Below, piece after piece: positions 8,727 to 19,217 of a stretch of 40,589 nt of DNA. Within the stretch, counting starts at the first letter, position 1. Each line of letters begins with the position of its first letter. Under the pieces are notes generated by a model, which had not been told where the DNA came from, made no database searches, and was given only the letters and a program-made list of their open reading frames with translations. The stretch is taken from contig CAINCU010000069.1 in assembly GCA_903847155.1 (NCBI GenBank), positions 1 to 40,589 on the forward strand, given 5' to 3'. Made by a program: the position numbers and the translations under genes. This DNA comes from an uncultured Gallionellaceae bacterium (GTDB taxonomy: Bacteria > Pseudomonadota > Gammaproteobacteria > Burkholderiales > Gallionellaceae).

Positions 8727-9847
8727 CAAGGCATGATCTCAACATACTCATACACCTCCGCATCGATCAGTTCTTTCCTCACCGTGAGAGCTGCCTCGGC
8801 GAACCATGCGTGCGGATCATGTTTGTCGATTTCGCGCCCCATGAAGCGGACCAGTTCACAGATCGGCTCGACTACATTGGCTCGGTAGCGTTCGTCCTTC
8901 TTCACGTATCCCATGTAGAGGTTCTTCATGCAGTTGCCGCGACACCAAGTATAGGCCTCGCAAGCATTGCAGGGCATGTCCGGATGCTGCTGCAACGGAC
9001 TTTTTTTCAGCCAGTTACCCTGTATCTCGCCCATTTGCATGCTCGGCAAGTAGGTCATATCGGGACAGGGAAATATCTTGCCGTCCGGCATGATATTGAG
9101 AATGTGCGTCGAGACGCGGCATTGTGTTTGGCCGGAATATAACTCCTTGGCGCGATTCGGCAATACCTTGTTGCGCACGATTCCCATGATCGGGATCAGC
9201 GGGTAAAGTTTGTCTGTACGGCAGAAGAATTTATCGATGAGCTGGATTAGCACCGCCTTGCGCTTGTCCAGCGAATCGTCAAAATATTGTTCGTCAGCGA
9301 CAAACTGCCAGTACAGGTAATCGAAAGATTCAGCGAGGTCGTCGAGTTCCTCAAAACTGGTATCAGAGTGACCCCAAGTCACGCGTGCAGTAACACTGCC
9401 GCCAAGCCTGTCGCGCACATGGTTCACATTTTTGTGCACTTGACGCCAAACACCCCGACCTCGGTAACGGTCCGTGATTTGCTCCCCTCCATCGATGGAA
9501 ACTAGGATGTTCGACAGTTTGTGCAACATCCAATCCGGCAGGTTATCCAGCAGCGTACCGTTGGTTTGCAACTGATAGCGGAAAGAAGGGAAACGGCGCA
9601 TGACTGTTTCCATCATCTCTCGATTGAGCGTCGGTTCGCCGCCATAAAACGTGACATAGATTTCCTTGCCGCCGAGGTTGTGCTCGATAAAGGCGGCGAG
9701 TTGTTCGATGTCGTATTTCAGCTCGGTCTGTGAGCCTAATACTTCGCCTACGCTCATCGAACAATAAGTGCATTTCAGGTTGCACTTAAGCGTGGTGAGA
9801 AGCTGTAGTTCGACGCGACCGCCGACAATGGGATTGATATCGGACAT
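8726..9847 (-). CDS. radical SAM protein with C-terminal SPASM-like cysteines
   Basis: 373 aa from ATG 9847 (AGG upstream; a TTG nine codons earlier is less likely). The [4Fe-4S]/SAM site CNLKCTYC (CxxxCxxC) lies near residues 22-29 after a beta-strand (VELQLLTTLK). YGGEPTL (about 69-75) is the SAM-binding GGEP motif. The C-terminal third has further cysteines (CRVS, FPCPDM, MPCNACEAYTWCRGNC), as in SPASM/twitch domains that hold auxiliary clusters. Such enzymes modify ribosomal peptides or mature enzyme partners; no precursor peptide or partner is recognisable nearby. The stop codon lies exactly at the edge of a group II intron remnant, so the extreme C-terminus may have been altered by that insertion. 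Confidence 0.8.
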   Translation of the reverse strand: MSDINPIVGGRVELQLLTTLKCNLKCTYCSMSVGEVLGSQTELKYDIEQLAAFIEHNLGGKEIYVTFYGGEPTLNREMMETVMRRFPSFRYQLQTNGTLLDNLPDWMLHKLSNILVSIDGGEQITDRYRGRGVWRQVHKNVNHVRDRLGGSVTARVTWGHSDTSFEELDDLAESFDYLYWQFVADEQYFDDSLDKRKAVLIQLIDKFFCRTDKLYPLIPIMGIVRNKVLPNRAKELYSGQTQCRVSTHILNIMPDGKIFPCPDMTYLPSMQMGEIQGNWLKKSPLQQHPDMPCNACEAYTWCRGNCMKNLYMGYVKKDERYRANVVEPICELVRFMGREIDKHDPHAWFAEAALTVRKELIDAEVYEYVEIMP

Positions 9848-9985
9848 AATTACCTGCGTTGCCACAGGAGACAAGATATGGGAGTAGTGTAACCGGATTC
9901 GGAGAGCGCCTTGAGGATTTTCGGCACTAGTATCTGGTCGCCAAAACTAGTTGGCACTATGTTCACACCCATTTACTTACCGTCA

Positions 9986-10027
9986 GGTGCGCGATTAGTC
10001 TCGAACCAATGATTCTCACCATTTCAA
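9986..10027 (-). repeat. degenerate copy of the tRNA-Val 3' half (possible attachment-site remnant)
   Basis: Read on the minus strand, 39 bases here match the tRNA-Val(GAC) gene at 13950-14026 from inside the anticodon loop to the acceptor stem with 32 identities, including TTGGTTCGAG and AATCGCGC, followed by ACC. It is in the same orientation as the intact tRNA. The other half of the tRNA is missing. Most of the differences read as G-to-A or C-to-T decay. This is the arrangement left when an element integrates at a tRNA 3' end. Confidence 0.6.
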
Positions 10028-10123
10028 CGGGAAAAAAACTTGCATTTATCTGCCATCTATATAGTGGTCTAATAAAAACGTACACCTCGATAGAATTATA
10101 ATTCACCAAAAGAGGAAACACCG

Positions 10124-10360
10124 ATGAGCAAGCAATACGAAGCTCCATTTAAGTTAGAAGTTGCCCGCATGGAAGTTGATCAACGATTGAGCGTCGCGCA
10201 AGTAGTCAAAGACATGGACATAGGTCGCACAGCAGTGAATCGCTGGATTGAGCAATACCGAGCCGAACAACTGGGTAAAACCGGTATCGGCGAGCCGATC
10301 ACCGCCAAGCAGCAACGTATCCGCCAATTGGAAAGCGAGAACCGCCAACTGCGTTCCGAT
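10124..10360 (+). pseudogene. IS3-family transposase OrfA, truncated
   Basis: 79 residues with a helix-turn-helix of IS3 OrfA type: APFKLEVARM, then LSVAQVVKDMDIGRTAVNRW, and the leucine-zipper start RQLESENRQLRSD. Full OrfA proteins continue with the block that leads to the programmed frameshift into OrfB. Here the similarity stops abruptly at 10360 and the frame runs on into unrelated sequence to 10504. No orfB is present. A good AAAGAGGAAAC ribosome-binding site precedes ATG at 10124. The sequence from 10361 to 10510 has no recognisable gene. Confidence 0.75.
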
Positions 10361-10510
10361 TCTGTACAGTTATACGAGCGGCCATTCGGGTCTCGCACGG
10401 CATGGGCAAGCTGGTGCTCAATGAAGTCCGGGCGCACCCCTAGGAGGTTTGGGTGTTCGCGCCCTGACCGCCGTTTTCCCCATGATCCACACGGGGGACG
10501 GTAGAAATCT

Positions 10511-10813
10511 CTATGCTGCCTTGAGTTGCTGGATGTGGGCGTAGTCGCCTTGCTGCTCCAACGTCCAAACATCAACGGCCTGTTGCATCCGTAGCCAAAA
10601 GCCAGCGCCATTGCCCAGCAACTTGCCCAAGCGAATTGCCATGTCAGGCGTTACCGGTCGGCGCTCGTGCAGAATCTCGGACACGGTGCGGCGAGACACA
10701 CCCATCCGATCAGCAAACTCGCCTTGAGTGATGCCCAGCTCGGGCATCACTACATCGCGCAGCAATGCGCCAGGGTGAGATGGTGCTCGGCGTTTGTAGC
10801 GTAAATTGTCCAT
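10511..10813 (-). CDS. higA: HigA-type antitoxin (XRE helix-turn-helix)
   Basis: 100 aa. The DNA-binding domain is typical of HigA: HPGALLRDVVMPELGITQ, then EFADRMGVSRRTVSEILHERRPV (about residues 13-53), followed by the family's AIRLGKLLGNGAGFWLRMQ helix. HigA neutralises the mRNA-cleaving toxin HigB and represses the operon. The start ATG overlaps the stop of the upstream higB fragment (TGATG), the normal higBA arrangement. Because higB has lost its N-terminus, this antitoxin is now an orphan and the original promoter, upstream of higB, has been removed. Confidence 0.87.
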   Translation of the reverse strand: MDNLRYKRRAPSHPGALLRDVVMPELGITQGEFADRMGVSRRTVSEILHERRPVTPDMAIRLGKLLGNGAGFWLRMQQAVDVWTLEQQGDYAHIQQLKAA

Positions 10814-10986
10814 CAGTGGTAATCCTCCAAATCCAGTATGTAGGCATCGCCGTTTTCAAACTCAAACGTGATGCGCCAATTTGCCGACACTCTCACACTC
10901 CACAGGTTGCGCTTGTCGCCCTTTAAGCGATGCAGCCGGAAGCCAGGCAAGTCCAGCTCATTCACTAATTCCGCTGCATCTATTGC
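10813..10986 (-). pseudogene. higB: HigB toxin, N-terminally truncated
   Basis: 57 C-terminal codons remain: AIDAAELVNELDLPGF, RLHRLKGDKRNLWSV, then ANWRITFEFENGDAYILDL and EDYH. These match the second half of RelE-superfamily HigB toxins (about 92 aa), including the WRI..F strand that carries active-site residues. The missing part is roughly the first 33-35 residues. The break falls exactly at the right end of the tnpB element (10987), so insertion, possibly with a deletion, destroyed the toxin. Confidence 0.8.
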
Positions 10987-11130
10987 TTGACGTCCTCCCC
11001 GGCATGAATGGCGGAGATTCCTACCGCGCTATGCACAAGTCACCTCACGCATAGTCGCCTCGGCGGGTTCCTGCTTCACGGAACGGCCTGACTGCGCCAA
11101 TTCTCCACAGGCTAACAAGCGATATCCTCG
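10987..11130 (-). ncRNA. putative omega/re RNA of the tnpB element
   Basis: Known TnpB guide RNAs overlap the 3' end of tnpB and run to the right end, with the guide taken from flanking DNA. Here the corresponding segment covers the tnpB end, the untranslated tail with AGCGCGGTAGGAATCTCC, a small stem, and the terminal GACGTCAA; the guide would begin in the higB fragment at 10986 (GCAATAGATGCAGCGG). The same segment is kept in the fragment at 18128-18256. The 5' boundary given is only an estimate; no folding was possible. Confidence 0.4.
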
Positions 11131-12252
11131 CTCTAAAACATTGATAGCGCCGACCAAGTCAGCGTTATTCTCATAGCCGCAATCCACGCACGCGAACCTG
11201 GCTTGTGTCTGGCGATTCTCTACCGACACATGGTCGCAGGCCGGACACGTCCGGCTGGTATTTCTGGCCGGTACCACCAGCACGTCACCGCCTAGCCAAA
11301 CCTGCTTGTATTCCAGCTGCCGCCTGAATTCGAACCACCCCTGATCGAGGATAGACTTGTTCAGGCCGGATTTGGCTTTGACGTTACGTCCTGGCGAATC
11401 GCTGCTGCCTGCAGAGGACTTGGACATATTCCGTACCTGCAAGTCCTCGATACACACTATCGCGTGGTTTTGGCTGATCGTGGTTGAAGTCTTGTGCAGG
11501 AAATCGCGGCGGACATTGGCGATGCGGGTGTGAATCTTCTGGACTCGGGCTTTCGCTTTCTTCCAGTTGCTGCTGAACTTCGTCTTGCGCGACATGGCCC
11601 GTTGATAGCGAGCCAGCCGTTGTTGATGTTTCCTGAAGGTATTAAGCGGTACAATGTAGCTACCATCGCTCAAGGTGGCAAAGCGGGTGATACCCACGTC
11701 GATGCCAATGATCGAGGTTGATGGATGTGCCGGCTCTGCAATCTCGCGTTCGGTCTGGATCGCCACGAACCACTTGCCGCCAGACTGGCTCACTGTGGCG
11801 TTACGCAACTCGCCCAACACGTCCCGGCTGAGGCGCATGCGCATCCAGCCCAGCTTGGGCAGGAAGATGCGGTTATTGGCCTGATCGAGCTTGATTTGCT
11901 TTGGGTCGGGGTAACGGAAACTGTCACCGCTGCCTTTCTTCTTGAAGCGCGGGAAGTCTGCACGCTTGGCAAAGAAGTTTTTGTACGCCTTCTCCAGGTC
12001 TTTCAGGGCATGTTGCAGTGGGTGGCATGGGGCATCCTTGAGCCACGGCGTTTCGCTGCCATTGCGCCATGCCGTGAGATGTTTCGCCATCGCCACATAG
12101 CCGATGAATTTGTTTCCGGCCTCGTGATTATCTTTTTGCAGCGCCAGCGCCTTGTTGTAAACGAAACGGCATGACCCCGCGAAGCGGCGCATGTCGCGCT
12201 GTTGCTGTCCGTCGGGCCGTAACTCGAACTTGTAGGCTTGCTGGCGTTTCAT
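11029..12252 (-). CDS. tnpB: RNA-guided endonuclease TnpB
   Basis: 407 aa from ATG 12252 (a TTG ten codons earlier is also open); normal length for TnpB, ancestor of Cas12. N-terminal helix-turn-helix/wedge region MKRQQAYKFELRP; RuvC-like catalytic residues in IIGIDVGITRFA (Asp), VCIEDLQVRNM (Glu) and NNADLVGAINV (Asp); zinc knuckle CPACDHV...CVDCGYENN between the last two. All three acidic residues and the four cysteines are present, so the nuclease appears intact. It would use a guide RNA from the element's right end to cut the empty donor site. The adjoining ends and flanks are described under the insertion sequence. Confidence 0.92.
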   Translation of the reverse strand: MKRQQAYKFELRPDGQQQRDMRRFAGSCRFVYNKALALQKDNHEAGNKFIGYVAMAKHLTAWRNGSETPWLKDAPCHPLQHALKDLEKAYKNFFAKRADFPRFKKKGSGDSFRYPDPKQIKLDQANNRIFLPKLGWMRMRLSRDVLGELRNATVSQSGGKWFVAIQTEREIAEPAHPSTSIIGIDVGITRFATLSDGSYIVPLNTFRKHQQRLARYQRAMSRKTKFSSNWKKAKARVQKIHTRIANVRRDFLHKTSTTISQNHAIVCIEDLQVRNMSKSSAGSSDSPGRNVKAKSGLNKSILDQGWFEFRRQLEYKQVWLGGDVLVVPARNTSRTCPACDHVSVENRQTQARFACVDCGYENNADLVGAINVLERGYRLLACGELAQSGRSVKQEPAEATMREVTCA

Positions 12253-12375
12253 AAAACTTATTGTAGCGTATATTACTGACAATAAGAACGTTCGTTCTGC
12301 GCATTTAAGATGGATGCCTTCGACATCCGCGCTATCCTTCCCCGCCCTGAAGGGCGAGGTTTGCCGCGCAACTGA

Positions 12376-13623
12376 TCAACAGCCATCCCACAGGCTGCGT
12401 ATTGGCACAGCAAATAATTTGTCGCCAAATGGGGTCGTCACTTCACCGTCATACAAAACGACACCTCCAGCAAAGCGTTCCCCTGCGCTTTCCTTCAATT
12501 TGCGCAACCCGCGAAAATCGTTTGCCGTTACCGTAGCAGAGGCTTTCACCTCAACACCGGCCACACGTTGACCGACACCCTCCAATACGATGTCCACCTC
12601 TGCACCGTCTTTGTCCCGGAAGTGATAGAAAGTGATTGTGTCATCGCGCCAACTCGCTTGGCGGCGCAGCTCTTGGAAAATAAAAGTTTCCAAGAGCTGC
12701 CCAAGCAAGGTGCGATCTGCCCATAACGCTGCGCCATCCACACCCAGCAAAGCGCAGGCAAGCCCGGTATCCCCTAAATGTAGCTTGGGGGTTTTGACCA
12801 GCCTGCTTAAGCGGTTGTTATGCCAGGGTGGCAACTCTTCCAGCAAAAATACGCGCGCCAGTAACGTCACATAATCGCGAATTGTTGGGCGGCTCAATTG
12901 AAAAGGCGATGCCAGATCTGCCACATTGAGCAACCTCGCCGTCTGTCCGGCTGCTAATGTAAGCAAACGTGGCAATACATCCAGCGAGCTGATGCGTGCC
13001 ATATCTCGCACATCACGCTGCACCAGCGTTTCGATGTAATCACGATACCAAGTGACACGCCTGCGTGATGATGGTCGTGCAAGCGCGGCGGGATAGCCAC
13101 CAGCAGCAATCCGGTCGGCGAGCTCCTTGCCCAATCTTGCCTGTTGCTTCGTCTTAAAACCAACTCCAAACAACGCATCCAGAAAGTCCGGCTGCTTTGC
13201 TGCCAGCTCAGACTGAGCGAGCGGGTGCAGTCGCAAAATTTCCATGCGCCCTGCCAGCGAGTCTGCCAACCGTGGCACCAATAGCACGTTTGCCGAGCCA
13301 GTCAGAATGAACCGCCCCGGTCGCCGGTCACGATCTACTGCGACTTTCAACGCAGTAAACAATTCAGGAACACGCTGCACCTGATCCAACACCACCTTAT
13401 CCGGCAAATCTGCCACAAACCCCACCGGGTCGGCCAGAACCGATGCTCGCAACACATCATCATCGAAACTGATATAGGCATAGCCAGCCGCATCACCCAC
13501 AGCGCGGGCGAGCGTAGTCTTGCCGCATTGGCGCGGGCCGTGAATCAGCACCACAGGCGTATCTTGCAGCGCCTCGGTCAGGTGAGAGAGCGCGAAACGG
13601 GGATGGAAGATTGGATCAGTCAT
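12376..13623 (-). CDS. AAA ATPase with DUF4143 domain
   Basis: 415 aa. Walker A GPRQCGKTTL (about residues 29-38), a Walker B region ending PDKVVLDQVQRVPEL where the usual Asp-Glu is Asp-Gln, and the sensor segment FILTGSANVLL. The C-terminal half carries the DUF4143 fold with a nuclease-like core (DGAEVDIVLE...VAGVEVKASATV, the D..E.K pattern of PD-(D/E)XK proteins). Such ATPases are frequent in accessory DNA and have no agreed function. The stop TGA is part of the TTGAT at the left end of the tnpB element; the C-terminus has a normal family length, so little or nothing was lost. Confidence 0.82.
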   Translation of the reverse strand: MTDPIFHPRFALSHLTEALQDTPVVLIHGPRQCGKTTLARAVGDAAGYAYISFDDDVLRASVLADPVGFVADLPDKVVLDQVQRVPELFTALKVAVDRDRRPGRFILTGSANVLLVPRLADSLAGRMEILRLHPLAQSELAAKQPDFLDALFGVGFKTKQQARLGKELADRIAAGGYPAALARPSSRRRVTWYRDYIETLVQRDVRDMARISSLDVLPRLLTLAAGQTARLLNVADLASPFQLSRPTIRDYVTLLARVFLLEELPPWHNNRLSRLVKTPKLHLGDTGLACALLGVDGAALWADRTLLGQLLETFIFQELRRQASWRDDTITFYHFRDKDGAEVDIVLEGVGQRVAGVEVKASATVTANDFRGLRKLKESAGERFAGGVVLYDGEVTTPFGDKLFAVPIRSLWDGC

Positions 13624-13949
13624 GCGGCCAAGTGTAACTCAATGTATCGGCCAATTGAAATGTTTTAATACGACCAAATGAAACCATGGCATATTCAGAA
13701 TGGAACTCCGCTGCAATTTTTTCAGGAATTTGACGGATGGTCGAGCTTCACGATGGCGCAAAGATAGGCGCACCTTTCAGGAGAACATTTGCGAGCCTGG
13801 GTGAACCGCACGCCCTTGCATTTGGTAGCAAATGCCGAGGTTTTGGCGGGTTCGGATGGTGAATGGCAGGTTTCAGCCATACCGAACAAAAAAACCGCAT
13901 AAGCGGCTTTAATGTAAATCGTAACGTGTTGTTTTACCTACGATATTTT
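13624..13949. other. gene-poor stretch with a small protein-coding remnant
   Basis: The plus-strand frame from about 13768 to 13902 encodes RAWVNRTPLHLVANAEVLAG, then SDGEWQVSAIPNKKTA, and a stop. Codon use looks genuine and it has the feel of the C-terminus of a lost gene, with an in-frame TAG just upstream at 13765. I cannot name the family. Nothing else is seen before the tRNA. Confidence 0.35.
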
Positions 13950-14026
13950 TGGTAGGCGCGATTGGACTCGAACCAACGACCCCCACCATGTCAAGGTGGT
14001 GCTCTAACCAGCTGAGCTACGCGCCT
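13950..14026 (-). tRNA. tRNA-Val (anticodon GAC)
   Basis: Complete 77-nt tRNA with encoded CCA. The acceptor AGGCGCG pairs with CGCGCCT; the D-arm region is GCTCAGCTGGTTAGAGC; the anticodon stem CCACC/GGTGG encloses TTGACAT, giving GAC, which reads GUC/GUU; the T-arm contains GGTTCGAGTCC. Its 3' half is partly repeated at 9986-10027, so it may have served as an integration target. Confidence 0.97.
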
Positions 14027-14040
14027 GTAAAAGGACGCGC

Positions 14041-14070
14041 ATTGTAACCGAATAGATTGAACGTTGCCAA
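14041..14070 (-). promoter_or_regulatory. tRNA-Val promoter
   Basis: On the minus strand TTGGCA (14070-14065), an 18-base spacer, then TACAAT (14046-14041) and a GCGCGTCC discriminator that fits stable-RNA promoters. It lies between the dnaB stop and the tRNA. Confidence 0.6.
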
Positions 14071-14090
14071 CGAATTAGTGCACCATCAAC

Positions 14091-15482
14091 TTAACGTTGA
14101 GATGATGCATAATTTTCGAAACGCGTGAACTCGCCACGGAAGGTCAGCTCAACCTTGCCGATGGGGCCGTTACGCTGTTTGCCGATGATGATCTCAGCTT
14201 TGCCTTTGTCAGGTGTATCCGGGTTATAAACTTCATCGCGGTAGATGAACAGAATCAAGTCAGCATCCTGCTCTATAGCGCCTGATTCGCGCAAGTCGGA
14301 CATGACTGGACGTTTGTTAGGACGTTGCTCCAAACTACGATTGAGCTGAGATAGTGCGATCACTGGCACATGCAACTCCTTCGCCAGCGATTTCAATGAA
14401 CGAGAAATTTCTGAAATTTCTGTTGCCCGATTTTCGCTCGATCTGCCAGCCGGAGAAGACATCAGCTGGATATAGTCAATCACGATCAAGCCAAGGCCGT
14501 CTTTATTCTGGCGGTGAAGACGGCGCGCGCGCGAACGCAGTTCCAATGAGTTCAAACCAGCAGTCTCATCAATAAAGATCGGGGCATCGTTCAATTGCCC
14601 CAAAGCGTGGGTCATACGCGACCAGTCATCGTCTTCCAGTCGTCCGGTACGCAGGCTGTGCTGATTGAGTCGTCCAACCGAACCAATCATACGCATCGCT
14701 AACTGCGTGCCACCCATTTCCATACTGAAGATGGCGACCGCTTTATTCGATTCCAGCGCCACATTCTCCGCAATGTTGATGGAAAACGCGGTCTTGCCCA
14801 TACTCGGGCGTCCCGCAACAATGATGAGATCGCCGGGTTGCAAACCGGAGGTCATGCTATCCAGATCAGTGAAGCCAGTAGCGATTCCTGTGATATCACT
14901 CGAATTTTCGCGGCTGTATAAACTCTCGATGCGCTCGACCACTTGCGTCAGTAACGGTGGCATTGAGGTAAAGCCTTGCCGTCCGCGTTCGCCTTGTTCG
15001 GAAATTTCAAAAACCTTGCTTTCAGCTTCATCCAATAACTGCCCGGCATCGCGTCCGCCCGGATTGTAGGCGCTGGTGGCGATCTCGCTGCCCACTTCCA
15101 CCAACTTGCGCATGATGGCGCGCTCGCGCACGATTTCGGCATAGCGGCGGATATTGGCAGCGGAAGGCACGTTCTGCGCCAGCGTACCCAAATAGACCAG
15201 ACCGCCCGCCTTTTCCAACTCGGCGTGGCTCTCCAGCGATTCGGCAACAGTGATGACATCAATCGGCTTGGCGTGCTCAGTCAGACGACCGATGTGCCGC
15301 CAAATCAAACGGTGTTCGTGGCGGTAGAAATCACTCTCGCTCAGCAGGTCGGCGATTTTATCCCAAGCGCTGGTATCCAACAGAATGCCACCCAGCACCG
15401 ACTGCTCCGCTTCGACGGAATGCGGAGGAAGTTTCAAAGCATCAAGCTGAGAATCGGCAACAGGAGTAGGATAGTTTTGCAT
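14091..15482 (-). CDS. dnaB: replicative DNA helicase DnaB
   Basis: 463 aa from ATG 15482; an open frame continues upstream into the inserted mobile DNA but MQNYPTPVADSQ is the natural beginning. Hexameric helicase that unwinds DNA at the replication fork. N-terminal domain PPHSVEAEQSVLGGILLD (about 20-37); RecA-like ATPase with Walker A GRPSMGKTAFS (near 208), IFSMEMGG, Walker B LIVIDYIQLM and the H4-type motif ALSQLNRSLEQRPNKRP. Its usual partners rplI, rpsR, priB and rpsF lie on the same strand 3 kb upstream, beyond the insertion, so dnaB is likely now driven by a different promoter. Confidence 0.96.
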   Translation of the reverse strand: MQNYPTPVADSQLDALKLPPHSVEAEQSVLGGILLDTSAWDKIADLLSESDFYRHEHRLIWRHIGRLTEHAKPIDVITVAESLESHAELEKAGGLVYLGTLAQNVPSAANIRRYAEIVRERAIMRKLVEVGSEIATSAYNPGGRDAGQLLDEAESKVFEISEQGERGRQGFTSMPPLLTQVVERIESLYSRENSSDITGIATGFTDLDSMTSGLQPGDLIIVAGRPSMGKTAFSINIAENVALESNKAVAIFSMEMGGTQLAMRMIGSVGRLNQHSLRTGRLEDDDWSRMTHALGQLNDAPIFIDETAGLNSLELRSRARRLHRQNKDGLGLIVIDYIQLMSSPAGRSSENRATEISEISRSLKSLAKELHVPVIALSQLNRSLEQRPNKRPVMSDLRESGAIEQDADLILFIYRDEVYNPDTPDKGKAEIIIGKQRNGPIGKVELTFRGEFTRFENYASSQR

Positions 15483-15508
15483 GGGATCAACGCAAATTTC
15501 GGAATGTA

Positions 15509-15517
15509 ATTTTACCA
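15509..15517 (-). promoter_or_regulatory. possible extended -10 promoter for dnaB
   Basis: TGGTAAAAT on the minus strand, an extended -10 (TGn-TAAAAT), ends 27 bases before the dnaB ATG and lies exactly at the edge of the mobile left end. No convincing -35 is seen. It is the best candidate to drive dnaB after the operon was split. Confidence 0.35.
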
Positions 15518-15635
15518 GATTTGCGCGAAAAACCCTGCCCTTTAGGGCGGAGATGAATAGCAAGGATGTCGCAGGCACCTGTTTTTTGACTTTAAGTTTA
15601 TGTGCTAAACGTCTCAAACTTGGCTTTATGGTCGG

Positions 15636-15705
15636 GTAGCGGCAGCGCATTGCTGCGCCGCCGCACCCTAAGATCCGTACGTGCGTCTCACAACGCATAC
15701 GGCTC
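15636..15705 (-). ncRNA. group II intron domains V and VI
   Basis: Domain V at 15705-15672 reads GAGCCGTATGCG, a GTGA-type loop, CGCACGTACGGATC: the 34-nt catalytic hairpin with the AGC/bulge architecture. Domain VI (15669-15636) is a long GGGTGCGGCGGCGCAGC/GCGCTGCCGCTACCC hairpin with an unpaired A near the 3' end, the expected branch point. Both appear intact. Confidence 0.75.
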
Positions 15706-15762
15706 AAGCCTCTCAACGGCATTTTTCAGCACCCAGTTTCACTACTTTATTTTCCAGCGTTG

Positions 15763-17109
15763 TTAGTAATTCCTACCGCAATTGAGATGGTGCATTTTAA
15801 GATTGCTTGCGGCATCCGTTCCGCCGTCGGTTCTTTTCACGATATGTCGAACATCCCATGGGATGCCTTTTGTGATGGGTTCCCGACAGGTGGGACACAT
15901 GCCATCTTGTCTTAGCCATACACGGTAAAGCTTCGCACGGCCTCTCGTCGAGTTCAGCATTTTCTTACCCCATCGGGATTCGAAATACGGTTCCCATTGA
16001 GGGTCGTGCGGGTTGGCATCAGCTTTGATTTTGATATGCCTTACTATTGGCGTATCCATCTCCTTTAGCAAGATGATATTCTTTTGCGTGCCATCTTCTT
16101 TTTCTTCTGTTGCAGCAAATACCCAAGTTCGGGTGCCTCTGGATTTAAAGTATTTTCTCTTAACCCATCGGTCTCCTTTATTCGGATGCCGTCTTACCGC
16201 CCATTGCCATAGCATTGACCAGACATAGGTATCAACTTTACCAAAGGCTTCCTTGGCGACTGCATGACTATGGTAATTCGCCCATCCCCGTAAAACAGGA
16301 TTGAGCAACCTTATCAGGTTTGCCTGTTTAGCCGTCTTGTTGGCCTTGATGACTTCTCGGATTTTATCAAGATGTGCTTTGACGTTCGCTTTCGACGGCT
16401 TCATCAACAACGTGCCGTCATACTTGCGAATGTTCCATCCGAGGAAATCAAACCCTTCCCTGATATGCGTTATTTTGGTCTTCTCCGGCGATAGGACTAG
16501 CCCGCGTTCCGCCAGAAATTCAACCACCGCTGGCTTGACCTCATGCTCCAGCCACTCTTTCGAATTGCCAGTAATAATGAAATCGTCCGCATAACGCACC
16601 ATGTTCATTTTTCGACCTGTCCGCTTTGCATTTGGAAACTTCTCCGCCAGCATTGATTCGAGGCCGTCCAACGTCATGTTTGCCAGAACCGGACTGATGA
16701 TGCCCCCTTGCGGGGTACCGGCGTCAGTAGGAAAGAGTTCGTTTTGATACACGAATCCCGCCTTGAGCCACTTCTTTAGAATCGCCTTGTCCGTGGGGAT
16801 GTTGGCAATCATCCAGTCGTGACTGATATTGTCGAAACATCCTTTGATGTCGGCCTCCAGCACCCACTCCGCCGCTGTTTTCTGCACTAGGGAATTGAAA
16901 CATTGCTTCCCCGCATCGGCGGTTGATCGTTCCGGTCTGAATCCATAAGAATTCAGGTCGGCAGTGGTTTCCGCAATGGGTTCCAACGCCAGCAGATGTA
17001 GCGCTTGCATGGCGCGGCATTTCATTACGGGGATGCCGAGCGGCCTTGTCTTGCCATTCTTCTTCGGTATAAAAACTCTCCGAAGCGGAAGCGGCGAATA
17101 CCTGACCGC
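15763..17109 (-). pseudogene. ltrA: group II intron reverse transcriptase/maturase, N-terminus missing
   Basis: About 448 residues of the intron-encoded protein remain. The frame begins after an in-frame TAA (17112-17110) at RYSPLPLRRVFIPKKNGKTR, i.e. RT block 1; the N-terminal extension and block 0 (some 80-90 residues) are absent. Later blocks are present: SYGFRPERST, the GTPQGGIISPVLANM block, the catalytic MVRYADDFIITG, and the thumb/maturase region. The C-terminal HNH endonuclease (CPTCREPI, then VRHIVKRTDGG and HHLNCGRN) is complete. The first in-frame ATG is at 17025. Loss of block 0 suggests the protein is inactive, so mobility would need help in trans. Confidence 0.8.
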
Positions 17110-17395
17110 TTACCATTTTTGGTTCAAGCCTATCAGCACATTTGGCTTGTCATGTTTTACGACGTTTAATAAAGGTTCACGTATGTTGATCGTACCCACT
17201 CATCCCTAGCTCCTCTCCGCCTCCGTGCTGGCAGATTTCGCTTCCCCTCGCGGGTCGGCGTACCGAATTAATCGGCGGTTACATTGTCCCCAGAGCTTCA
17301 CACCGAGCTGTTACCGGCTCCGCATGTCTGGGTAGGGAACGGTTGACCTATCTTGCCATCACGTCATGATTGCCTGAACAATCGGTGGAGTGCGT

Positions 17396-17815
17396 TTAGC
17401 GTCCAGCCTTCAACGTTTTCAGATGCCCGGCTGTACCATAATTTAGCAATAATTGATCGTCTGTAATCAGTAACGCGCCAAGATGGCGAGCTGTCGCGGC
17501 AATCAAACGATCTGCCGGATCAGAATGAATATTACCTGGAAGCCGTGTGCTGGCAACCGCAATTTCTGGTGAAATTGGTTCGAGTCGGATACCCGGAATA
17601 GATACGGCCGTGTCTACCCATTCACCTACATCACGATCCAATGTAAGTCTTCCTTTGCTAACCAGCATGGCCACCTCCCAAGGAGAAATGGCCGACAACA
17701 ATACTGCTTCTTCGGATAATGAGCGTTCAATAGCTTTCACGGCCTTTGGATTAAGTTTGGGGTCGCCGTTTAGCAACCATACCCAAGCGTGAGTATCCAG
17801 CAATACCAAACTCAC
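17396..17815 (-). CDS. vapC: PIN-domain toxin (VapC-like)
   Basis: 139 aa. PIN ribonuclease with the acidic residues in place: LLDTHAWVWLL (first Asp), LSAISPWEVAML (Glu), HSDPADRLIAATA (Asp) and LITDDQLLL (Asp pair). This is the COG3744 type, often paired with Phd/YefM antitoxins. The start overlaps the antitoxin stop by 4 bases (ATGA), so the pair is translationally coupled. It cleaves RNA when free of antitoxin (family knowledge; target unknown). It lies between the intron and the right end of the gutted IS. Confidence 0.85.
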   Translation of the reverse strand: MSLVLLDTHAWVWLLNGDPKLNPKAVKAIERSLSEEAVLLSAISPWEVAMLVSKGRLTLDRDVGEWVDTAVSIPGIRLEPISPEIAVASTRLPGNIHSDPADRLIAATARHLGALLITDDQLLLNYGTAGHLKTLKAGR

Positions 17816-18039
17816 TTGGCAGATTCCCAGTCGGCGTTGATAGGTGAAATAATGTCATGCTCTTCAACAACACTCCCCTTTAGCGCCCCGAACAAGTGTT
17901 GTTCTGGCTCTACTGGTACAAGTTTGGCGACGGGTTTGCCATGTTTTGTGATGACTAAAGTCCCACGTTGTTCGGCAACGTCGTCGAGAAGTTGTAGACA
18001 CTTTGCCTTGAATTCTCCCGCTCCTATGGCTGTTTGCAT
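17812..18039 (-). CDS. vapB: Phd/YefM-family antitoxin
   Basis: 75 aa from ATG 18039, chosen because GGAGG lies 6 bases upstream; a start six codons earlier lacks this. The N-terminal DNA-binding fold is typical of Phd/YefM: AGEFKAKCLQLLDDVAEQRG, then LVITKHGKPVAKLVPV. The C-terminal tail would wrap the toxin. Just upstream, ATATGAC occurs twice within about 20 bases (18047-18070), a possible operator for autoregulation. The antitoxin precedes the toxin gene, as usual. Confidence 0.85.
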   Translation of the reverse strand: MQTAIGAGEFKAKCLQLLDDVAEQRGTLVITKHGKPVAKLVPVEPEQHLFGALKGSVVEEHDIISPINADWESAK

Positions 18040-18127
18040 TGCGCCTCCAATAGTCATATATAGTGGTCATATTGTAGCACGCCCTCCAGAAAATCCGGAT
18101 ACCTAAAAAAAACACATCAGGAAGAAG

Positions 18128-18221
18128 CTCTGTCACAAGATTGCATGGGTTGGCGAAGTCATGCCGTTCCGTGAAGCAGGAACCCGCCGAAGCGACTATG
18201 CGTGAGGTGACTTGTGCATAG
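18128..18221 (+). pseudogene. tnpB: tnpB 3' fragment
   Basis: Reads SCRSVKQEPAEATMREVTCA and a TAG stop, against SGRSVKQEPAEATMREVTCA in the intact TnpB, and a weaker match (LHGLAKS against LACGELAQS) just before. The untranslated tail GCGCGGTAGGAATCTC continues past the stop. No other part of tnpB is present between here and the left end at 15516. Confidence 0.8.
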
Positions 18222-18340
18222 CGCGGTAGGAATCTCAGGCATTCATGTCGGGGGGCTGACCTTGGCGTCATTTTGTCACACCCATTCTCTTTTCGCGTAT
18301 GCGGAAGCCTAAGGCTGAGGGATGTCAATTCCAGTTACTA

Positions 18341-18376
18341 CAAAAAGAAATGTCCCCGAATTTCTTCAGGGACATT
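18341..18376 (-). terminator. intrinsic terminator after rplI
   Basis: Perfect 8-bp stem AATGTCCC/GGGACATT (18349-18356 with 18369-18376), loop of 12, and on the minus strand a TCTTTTTG tail. It stands 115 bases past the rplI stop and would end the ribosomal transcript before the mobile DNA. Confidence 0.6.
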
Positions 18377-18490
18377 AGTAATCTTTCTAATTACGAAATC
18401 TAGTTTCTTTATGGCTTATGCGTCATTAGTAAAATTTTTACTCACGAGACGTCACAGCCCTTTTTCTGCACTACATGATGAGCAAAATTA

Positions 18491-18937
18491 CTATTCGCCC
18501 AGCACCGACACGGTAATGTTTACTACCACATCAGGATGAAGCGTGATGCTGACCGGATGATCGCCGATCTGCTTCAGATGCCCAGTCGCCATATTCACTT
18601 GGCCCTTTTCCACCTTGTAGTCTTGAGCCAACAGTGCTGCTGCAACGTCAGCGTTGGTCACGGAACCAAACAGCTTGCCATCGACGCCAGCCTTTTGGAC
18701 AATTTGCACGGTCAAGCCTTCCAGCTTTTCGCCACGTGCTTGCGCATCAGCCAGCTTGGCTTGATCTGCCGATTCCAATTCAACACGACGTGCCGCGAAG
18801 TCTGCAACGCTGCTTTCCGTAGCACGCTTGGCTTTGCCTTGCGGGATGAGGAAGTTACGCGCGAAACCATTTTTCACTTTGACCACATCGCCCAACTGGC
18901 CGAGGTTGATCACTTTTTCCATCAGAATAACTTGCAT
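18491..18937 (-). CDS. rplI: 50S ribosomal protein L9
   Basis: 148 aa, normal length. N-terminal rRNA-binding domain [19 protein letters not shown], the [18 protein letters not shown] block, a long central helix and the C-terminal domain ([16 protein letters not shown]). Strong TAAGGAG site. Last gene of rpsF-priB-rpsR-rplI; the gap to rpsR is 10 bases. Confidence 0.97.
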
Positions 18938-18947
18938 GATCTACTCC

Positions 18948-19217
18948 TTAGTGCAAATCGGTGTAAGGCAGCAAAGCCAGGAAGCGTGCGCGCTTCACGG
19001 CAACGCTTAATTGACGCTGGAAGCGCGTCTTGGTACCGGTAATGCGAGCCGGAATCAGCTTGCCGTTCTCGGTAATCATTTCCTTCAGGATGTTGAGATC
19101 CTTGTAATCCACTTCCGCGATCTTTTCTGCGGTGAAACGGCAGAATTTGCGGCGCTTGAACAATTGACGTGAAGAACTGCTCTTCTTGTCATCTTTTTTC
19201 TTAAATACACGAGCCAT
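18948..19217 (-). CDS. rpsR: 30S ribosomal protein S18
   Basis: 89 aa with the S18 core [17 protein letters not shown], then [17 protein letters not shown] and [16 protein letters not shown]. It binds the central domain of 16S rRNA beside S6. GGGGCAC precedes the ATG; it starts 9 bases after priB. Confidence 0.97.

Follow-up and report, generated by a model that had tools for sequence, protein, structure and literature searches.

We have analyzed the DNA lying between dnaB and rplI in an uncultured Gallionellaceae bacterium. The window, i.e., the whole stretch under study, is 40,589 nucleotides (nt) long and is the entire contig C69 of a genome of 3.08 Mb in 76 contigs. Positions 15516-18454 contain two end fragments of IS200/IS605 tnpB-type elements, the remnant of a group II intron and a complete vapBC toxin-antitoxin pair. 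We read this region as very probably a graveyard, a local stack of insertions and deletions and not one mobile unit, in which the vapBC pair belongs to a group of toxin-antitoxin units with ISL3-type terminal repeats.

Inserted DNA between dnaB and rplI

Sixty relatives were searched at the dnaB/rplI junction, and 20 loci were fetched. The intergenic stretch is well below 200 bp and carries no insert in any of the 20. Because dnaB and rplI are nearly adjacent in all of these relatives, we interpret 15516-18454 as a local stack, and the near-empty site supports the alternative that the first-pass annotation had itself offered, an accidental pile of insertions and deletions. On the dnaB side the similarity to relatives ends at or before 15516, in several directly after the sequence TTTTAC, placing the boundary at 15515/15516. 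Ancestral sequence resumes at about 18455, inside the apparent right arm of the rplI/dnaB terminator, and the exact left-arm string AAAGGGCTG is absent from 15500-18460. Compared with the relatives the window has thus gained nearly 3 kb and lost about 30 bp, including part of the ancestral terminator.

The vapBC pair lies on the reverse strand, with intact frames for both proteins. vapC (17396-17815) encodes a PIN-domain toxin of 139 amino acids (PF01850, 8e-15), and vapB (17812-18057) a Phd/YefM-type antitoxin of 81 amino acids (PF02604, 6e-8). Just beyond vapB, also on the reverse strand, is what remains of the ends of the cassette, a single ISL3-type terminal inverted repeat at 18082-18104 that has one mismatch to GGTATCCGGATTTTCYGGYGGG and three to the 23-nt consensus. 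Eight T residues lie outward of it. The opposite repeat has been lost at about 17381-17389, where the 3′ flank of vapC meets the truncated intron near 17385, so that the window copy has a repeat at one end only. Relatives of vapBC are found at other loci in two genomes (G029 and G013), where the matching stretch covers vapBC alone. An integron-like arrangement of vapBC and intron was considered and rejected. Only 12-15 nt separate the vapC stop codon from the end of similarity with relatives, which is too short for attC, a site longer than this; moreover the intron runs in the direction of vapBC.

The intron remnant occupies 15631-17385 on the reverse strand, antisense to the direction of tnpB. 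Rfam models RF00029 and RF02012 place domains V-VI at 15631-15707 and the D1-D4 region at 17209-17385; between them a fragment of a reverse transcriptase/maturase (15763-17025, reverse strand, 420 amino acids) contains RVT_1 and GIIM domains. It is therefore a group II intron, lacking a complete 5′ end and a complete reverse transcriptase. The corresponding frame in a relative (G024) is 576 amino acids long. A copy on contig C43 of the same genome matches the window in two blocks (15631-17111 and 17098-17346) that are separated in C43 by about 580 bp not shared with the window, indicating an internal deletion in the reverse transcriptase gene of the window copy. The C43 copy also extends further upstream to GTGCGACC, which we take to be the start of the group II intron and which the window lacks. 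The first-pass annotation had described the interior as an intron remnant with a complete toxin-antitoxin pair; the pair is indeed intact, and the description of the intron can now be corrected to a copy truncated at its 5′ end and internally deleted. No group I intron match was listed by Rfam for 9800-19000.

Other short segments separate these features. A spacer at 15596-15630 divides the left-end fragment from the 3′ end of the intron. Similarity of vapBC to its relatives stops at 18103-18107 and that of the right-end fragment starts at 18150, leaving 18105-18149 between cassette and fragment. A further segment, 18254-18454, is not present at this site in relatives. The last two belong to neither tnpB end. 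A search of 150 family genomes for the origin of 18254-18450 gave, outside the genome itself, two short matches only (29 and 31 target bases). As a separate observation, 18340-18373 forms an imperfect palindrome with short matches in G112 and G124; it is maybe a repeat of another mobile element.

Two worn tnpB ends

The window contains an intact tnpB-only element at 10987-12374 on the reverse strand, whose TnpB (11029-12282) has OrfB_IS605, Cas12f1-like TNB and HTH_OrfB domains. The first-pass annotation had proposed that the two ends of this element recur around the intron and vapBC in the same order and orientation, with only the last codons of tnpB left, and alignment confirmed each of these points. 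The left-end fragment (15516-15595, forward strand) lies upstream of dnaB directly after TTTTAC (15510-15515), and aligns with the left ends of both the intact element and a different tnpB element on contig C75 of the same genome. Positions 15521-15577 are identical to the reverse complement of 12315-12371 at 46 of 57 positions, with a score of 59; the best score in 500 shufflings of the left-end stretch was 23. At the other side, the right-end fragment (18150-18253, forward strand), which includes the last tnpB codons, is identical to the reverse complement of 10997-11100 at 98/104 positions. Both end fragments are thus genuine.

Can these ends still define a mobile unit? The left end retains a hairpin, read by eye, beside its target motif. 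However, the right fragment lacks the terminal sequence GGAYGTCAA, which is carried by the intact copy and, among 11 related right ends, by 10; it stops at 18253 before this point and gives way to unrelated sequence. We also searched the 150 family genomes for each end, scoring at most the five best candidates per genome, such that weak copies may be missed. Matches to the left end were found in four genomes and to the right end in 11, the genome itself included. Two genomes (G114 and G138) had matches to both types of end, on separate contigs, and nowhere else were the two ends seen together, flanking other cargo. Judged from these alignments and searches, the ends are real and arranged as had been claimed, yet they do not make a usable unit.

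The idea that the two tnpB ends act in trans to mobilize the intron and vapBC as a non-autonomous IS200/IS605 unit had in its favor the presence of both ends in the correct order and orientation, with the left one beside the target-like TTTTAC. We regard it as extremely unlikely, and rejected it on the missing right terminus and the lack of a second two-ended locus in the genomes searched. In addition, about 200 bp of DNA belonging to no end lies to the right of the right end, ancestral sequence has been lost, no TnpA gene was seen by eye beside the TnpB of the intact element, and these ends are absent from other places where vapBC or related introns are found. It is also highly improbable that repeats such as the intron caused the assembly to join unrelated pieces. 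The presence of intron sequence at the ends of contigs C43, C36, C34 and C20 speaks for such an artefact and counts against our interpretation, but with 85% to C43 the intron copy in the window is divergent, and on either side the sequence runs on into dnaB and rplI in the manner of the relatives.

Within the local stack, both ends might derive from a single tnpB element that entered after TTTTAC and whose interior was subsequently destroyed as further insertions and deletions nested within it. The consistent order and orientation, and the left boundary at the target-like motif, agree with this. Against it, the left fragment is closer to the C75 element, with which it gives a longer alignment (75/88 with three gap positions, 15507-15595), whereas the right fragment resembles the intact element and matches the 3′ region of the C75 element only at chance level (13/14). 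The TnpB proteins of these two elements match weakly (70/242). Measured against the intact copy, the two ends also differ in their rate of mismatches (Fisher p 0.014), a weak argument in view of the shortness of the left ends and their likeness between types. Since the left ends of the intact and C75 elements are alike at 59/67 positions, the left end is weak evidence on descent. We consider a single insertion quite possible, leaning slightly against it. In the history that we propose for the local stack, IS605-type elements (one or two), an intron and a vapBC cassette would each have inserted at dnaB/rplI, and deletions would have fused the inserted pieces. The framing of the intron and vapBC by two worn tnpB ends is accidental.

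Two further observations concern the tnpB elements. The right end of the intact element abuts a fragment (10800-10990) that by eye resembles the C-terminus of a RelE/HigB-type toxin, next to a helix-turn-helix gene at 10511-10813. An AGAACG..CGTTCT palindrome lies upstream of tnpB in both tnpB elements (12283-12310 in the window; about 1440-1470 in L008), and is perhaps an operator.

Toxin-antitoxin units with ISL3-type repeats

The inverted repeats were first noticed in the flanks of vapBC copies in relatives. Searching 34 genomes of the genus with the pattern GGTATCCGGATTTTCYG, allowing one mismatch, gave 14 places in six genomes, and none with the reversed control. When the pattern was lengthened and as many as two mismatches were tolerated, 158 family genomes yielded 20 places, spread over 10 of them, compared with one for the reversed control. 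At the level of the order (399 genomes) only six single two-mismatch places were found outside the genome itself, without any pairs. At this stringency, then, the repeats seem to be of local distribution.

Seven two-ended units were obtained from the pattern loci and two from a protein search with the transposase of one unit, making nine. We left out L160, L161 and L184, which are cut by contig ends, L185, which has a single end, L186 and L187, which are degenerate copies, and L158, a single site within a gene that is probably due to chance. All nine units contain a presumed toxin-antitoxin pair, of six types in total, in a set drawn from one bacterial family by searches seeded with the repeat or with a transposase accompanied by such a pair, which is not a random sample of ISL3 elements. 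Two units carry MqsR/MqsA (L153 and L154), two VapBC (L157 and L159, also listed as L014 and L015), one a ParE-like/ParD-like pair (L155), one DUF4258/DUF2283 (L156), one a GNAT protein with TacA1 (L183) and two a Gp49/HI1420-type pair (L201 and L202). NCBIfam names were obtained for L154 and L202.

An 8/8 target duplication was found in five of the nine units (L154, L156, L183, L201 and L202). It is 7/8 in L155 and L159, 6/8 in L157 and 2/8 in L153, i.e., at least 6/8 in eight of nine. Unoccupied sites were sought by joining the flanks of each unit and scoring up to two candidates per genome. G143 has the L202 site in uninterrupted form, with GAAATTTC present once, and the match extends over the full 360 nt across the junction; weaker matches in other genomes are probably to related genes. 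L155 sits in a dispersed repeat, copies of which run through the insertion point without the cassette in all four that were fetched and aligned, some having a one-base gap near the duplication or further along. For the other seven units (L153, L154, L156, L157, L159, L183 and L201) no cross-junction match of another genome was present among the matches listed. The repeat targeted by L155 is at least 115 bp long and is found in many family genomes (L223-L226).

Three of the units (L183, L201 and L202) encode an ISL3 transposase, and the remaining six have no full transposase. The L183 protein has the domains of the ISL3 family (PF01610, 3.2e-60; NF033550 above its cut-off), and that of L201 is 69% identical to it. 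Two of the cassettes retain pieces of such elements. L156 keeps the C-terminal part of a transposase of this kind (73/81 identical) and L153 the start of an HI1420-type antitoxin (31/45). These remnants suggest that some cassettes, at the least, arose from full elements by deletion. Separately, L183 (4131-4153), L156 (1617-1639), L184 (2016-2038) and L201 (3882-3904) show the repeat once more, in weaker form, some 56 bp inward of one end; this is possibly a second binding site for the transposase.

A wider transposase search gave 379 records, 12 of which were examined for their neighbors. The four closest plasmid-borne transposases (67.6, 56.5, 56.3 and 56.1% identical) are all preceded, at a distance of no more than about 0.8 kb, by a gene annotated as a RelE/ParE or HigB toxin; for the Aeromonas plasmid the annotation table lists no antitoxin gene. 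In two of the four the repeats enclose both pair and transposase, with an 8/8 duplication in L195 and no clear duplication in L194. For the plasmid elements of Aeromonas and Azospira (L196 and L197), only the right ends could be recognized, not the left. Two more distant transposases of the family (33% identical; L203 and L204) had no recognizable repeat pair.

The proposal that emerges is of full units in which an ISL3 transposase lies next to a toxin-antitoxin pair between inverted repeats, and of cassettes made up of the repeats and pair with no full transposase. The transposase would bind the repeats in cis or in trans and move the unit, and the pair would penalize its loss. To judge by the ends, the 8-bp duplications and the unoccupied sites of two units, movement of the cassettes in trans by an ISL3 transposase is the most likely mechanism. 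We think it rather probable that there is an ISL3 lineage dedicated to toxin-antitoxin cargo, in which full elements swap types of pair and cassettes lacking a transposase, with hardly anything inside besides the pair, spread in trans, the window copy being a decayed member.

A number of results weigh against this proposal. The repeats of the two VapBC units are degenerate (five and three mismatches in one, two and six in the other), the window copy has a single end, and a target duplication is missing at L153. For the VapBC relatives L065 and L066, which belong to other genera, no such repeats were visible by eye in the flanks examined, indicating that this pair also travels otherwise. DUF4258/DUF2283 is treated as a toxin-antitoxin pair by presumed association, no model naming it so, and the GNAT protein is labeled a toxin solely by its TacA1-type partner. 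A full transposase of the clade was not found in the window's own genome or in the other cassette-bearing genomes of the genus. Lastly, eight distant plasmid transposases (no more than 47% identical) adjoin other genes, partly toxin-like or defense-like, among them restriction-modification genes, a nucleotidyltransferase with DUF86, a DUF86 gene, an AbiEii/AbiGii toxin-family gene and a Fic-family gene, with an addiction-module antidote about 2 kb away in addition. The preference for such cargo may thus exceed the clade, or reflect plasmids in general, and it may not be special to these elements. In a side observation on the same group, distant plasmid ISL3 transposases (L198, L207-L212) are often beside defense-like genes (type ISP restriction-modification, nucleotidyltransferase with DUF86, AbiEii).

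Degenerate repeats at the VapBC units, and VapBC without visible repeats elsewhere, would also be expected if the repeats beside vapBC were there by chance, toxin-antitoxin genes merely collecting where insertion sequences do. We consider this very unlikely, in view of units with other pairs that combine 8/8 duplications and perfect or nearly perfect repeats, the unoccupied sites for two units, and the 20 places against one in the control. The window vapBC appears to be a damaged representative of a small family of toxin-antitoxin units that are probably mobile. With one end missing and no transposase of the clade found in the genome at E 1e-40, it is probably unable to move. A second cassette with two perfect repeats, the MqsRA unit L153 (G000:C73:230-1236), is nonetheless present in the same genome. 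The suggestion that vapBC is cargo of a non-autonomous addiction unit is probably right, on other grounds than those first given. Its own ISL3-type inverted repeats indicate that it likely was such cargo, and the ends of that unit would be these repeats and not those of TnpB.

Relation to known mobile elements

Most components of this proposal have precedents: toxin-antitoxin pairs in Tn3-family transposons, non-autonomous repeat units and ISL3 passengers are already known, and type II systems are associated with insertion sequences in general. Tn3-family transposons carry different type II pairs, gained in several acquisitions (PMC7157771). The ISL3 units resemble them in carrying different pairs within a transposon, and differ in their ISL3 transposase and 8-bp duplications. 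For the two plasmid units the annotation table, which is incomplete, has no resolvase gene between the ends, and none was seen by eye in the open reading frame lists of L183, L201 and L202; no search directed at resolvases was made. In mobile insertion cassettes and TIMEs, a unit that lacks a transposase is bounded by the inverted repeats of its parent element and has target duplications (PMC4133298), as in our cassettes. Here, however, the ends are ISL3-type and not Tn3-type, and all the two-ended units carry a presumed toxin-antitoxin pair. ISPpu12-type ISL3 elements similarly combine an ISL3 transposase with extra genes, in their case a signal peptidase and a metal antiporter (PMC4133298), whereas here the passengers are toxin-antitoxin pairs. 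Type II systems have been reported with insertion sequences, transposons and clusters of insertion sequences (PMC12548467), with no ISL3 lineage named and no occurrence of ISL3 in the part of that text seen. The literature searched (titles and the beginnings of abstracts, mostly open-access) showed no description of an ISL3 lineage that specializes in carrying toxin-antitoxin pairs.

Both end fragments in the window derive from IS200/IS605 tnpB elements, which they no longer resemble in having neither tnpB nor the right terminus. IStrons combine a group I intron with an insertion sequence (PMC4227781); the window instead has a broken group II intron antisense to tnpB. The stack as first framed is ordinary and accidental, and it shows that what looks like TnpB cargo may have been enclosed by accident.

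It has long been asked how toxin-antitoxin pairs on chromosomes come to occupy so many unrelated sites. Short repeat-bounded cassettes with varied pairs, 8-bp duplications and an identifiable ISL3 partner offer a concrete and testable vehicle. If there is indeed an ISL3 lineage dedicated to such cargo, toxin-antitoxin pairs would be mobile on their own.

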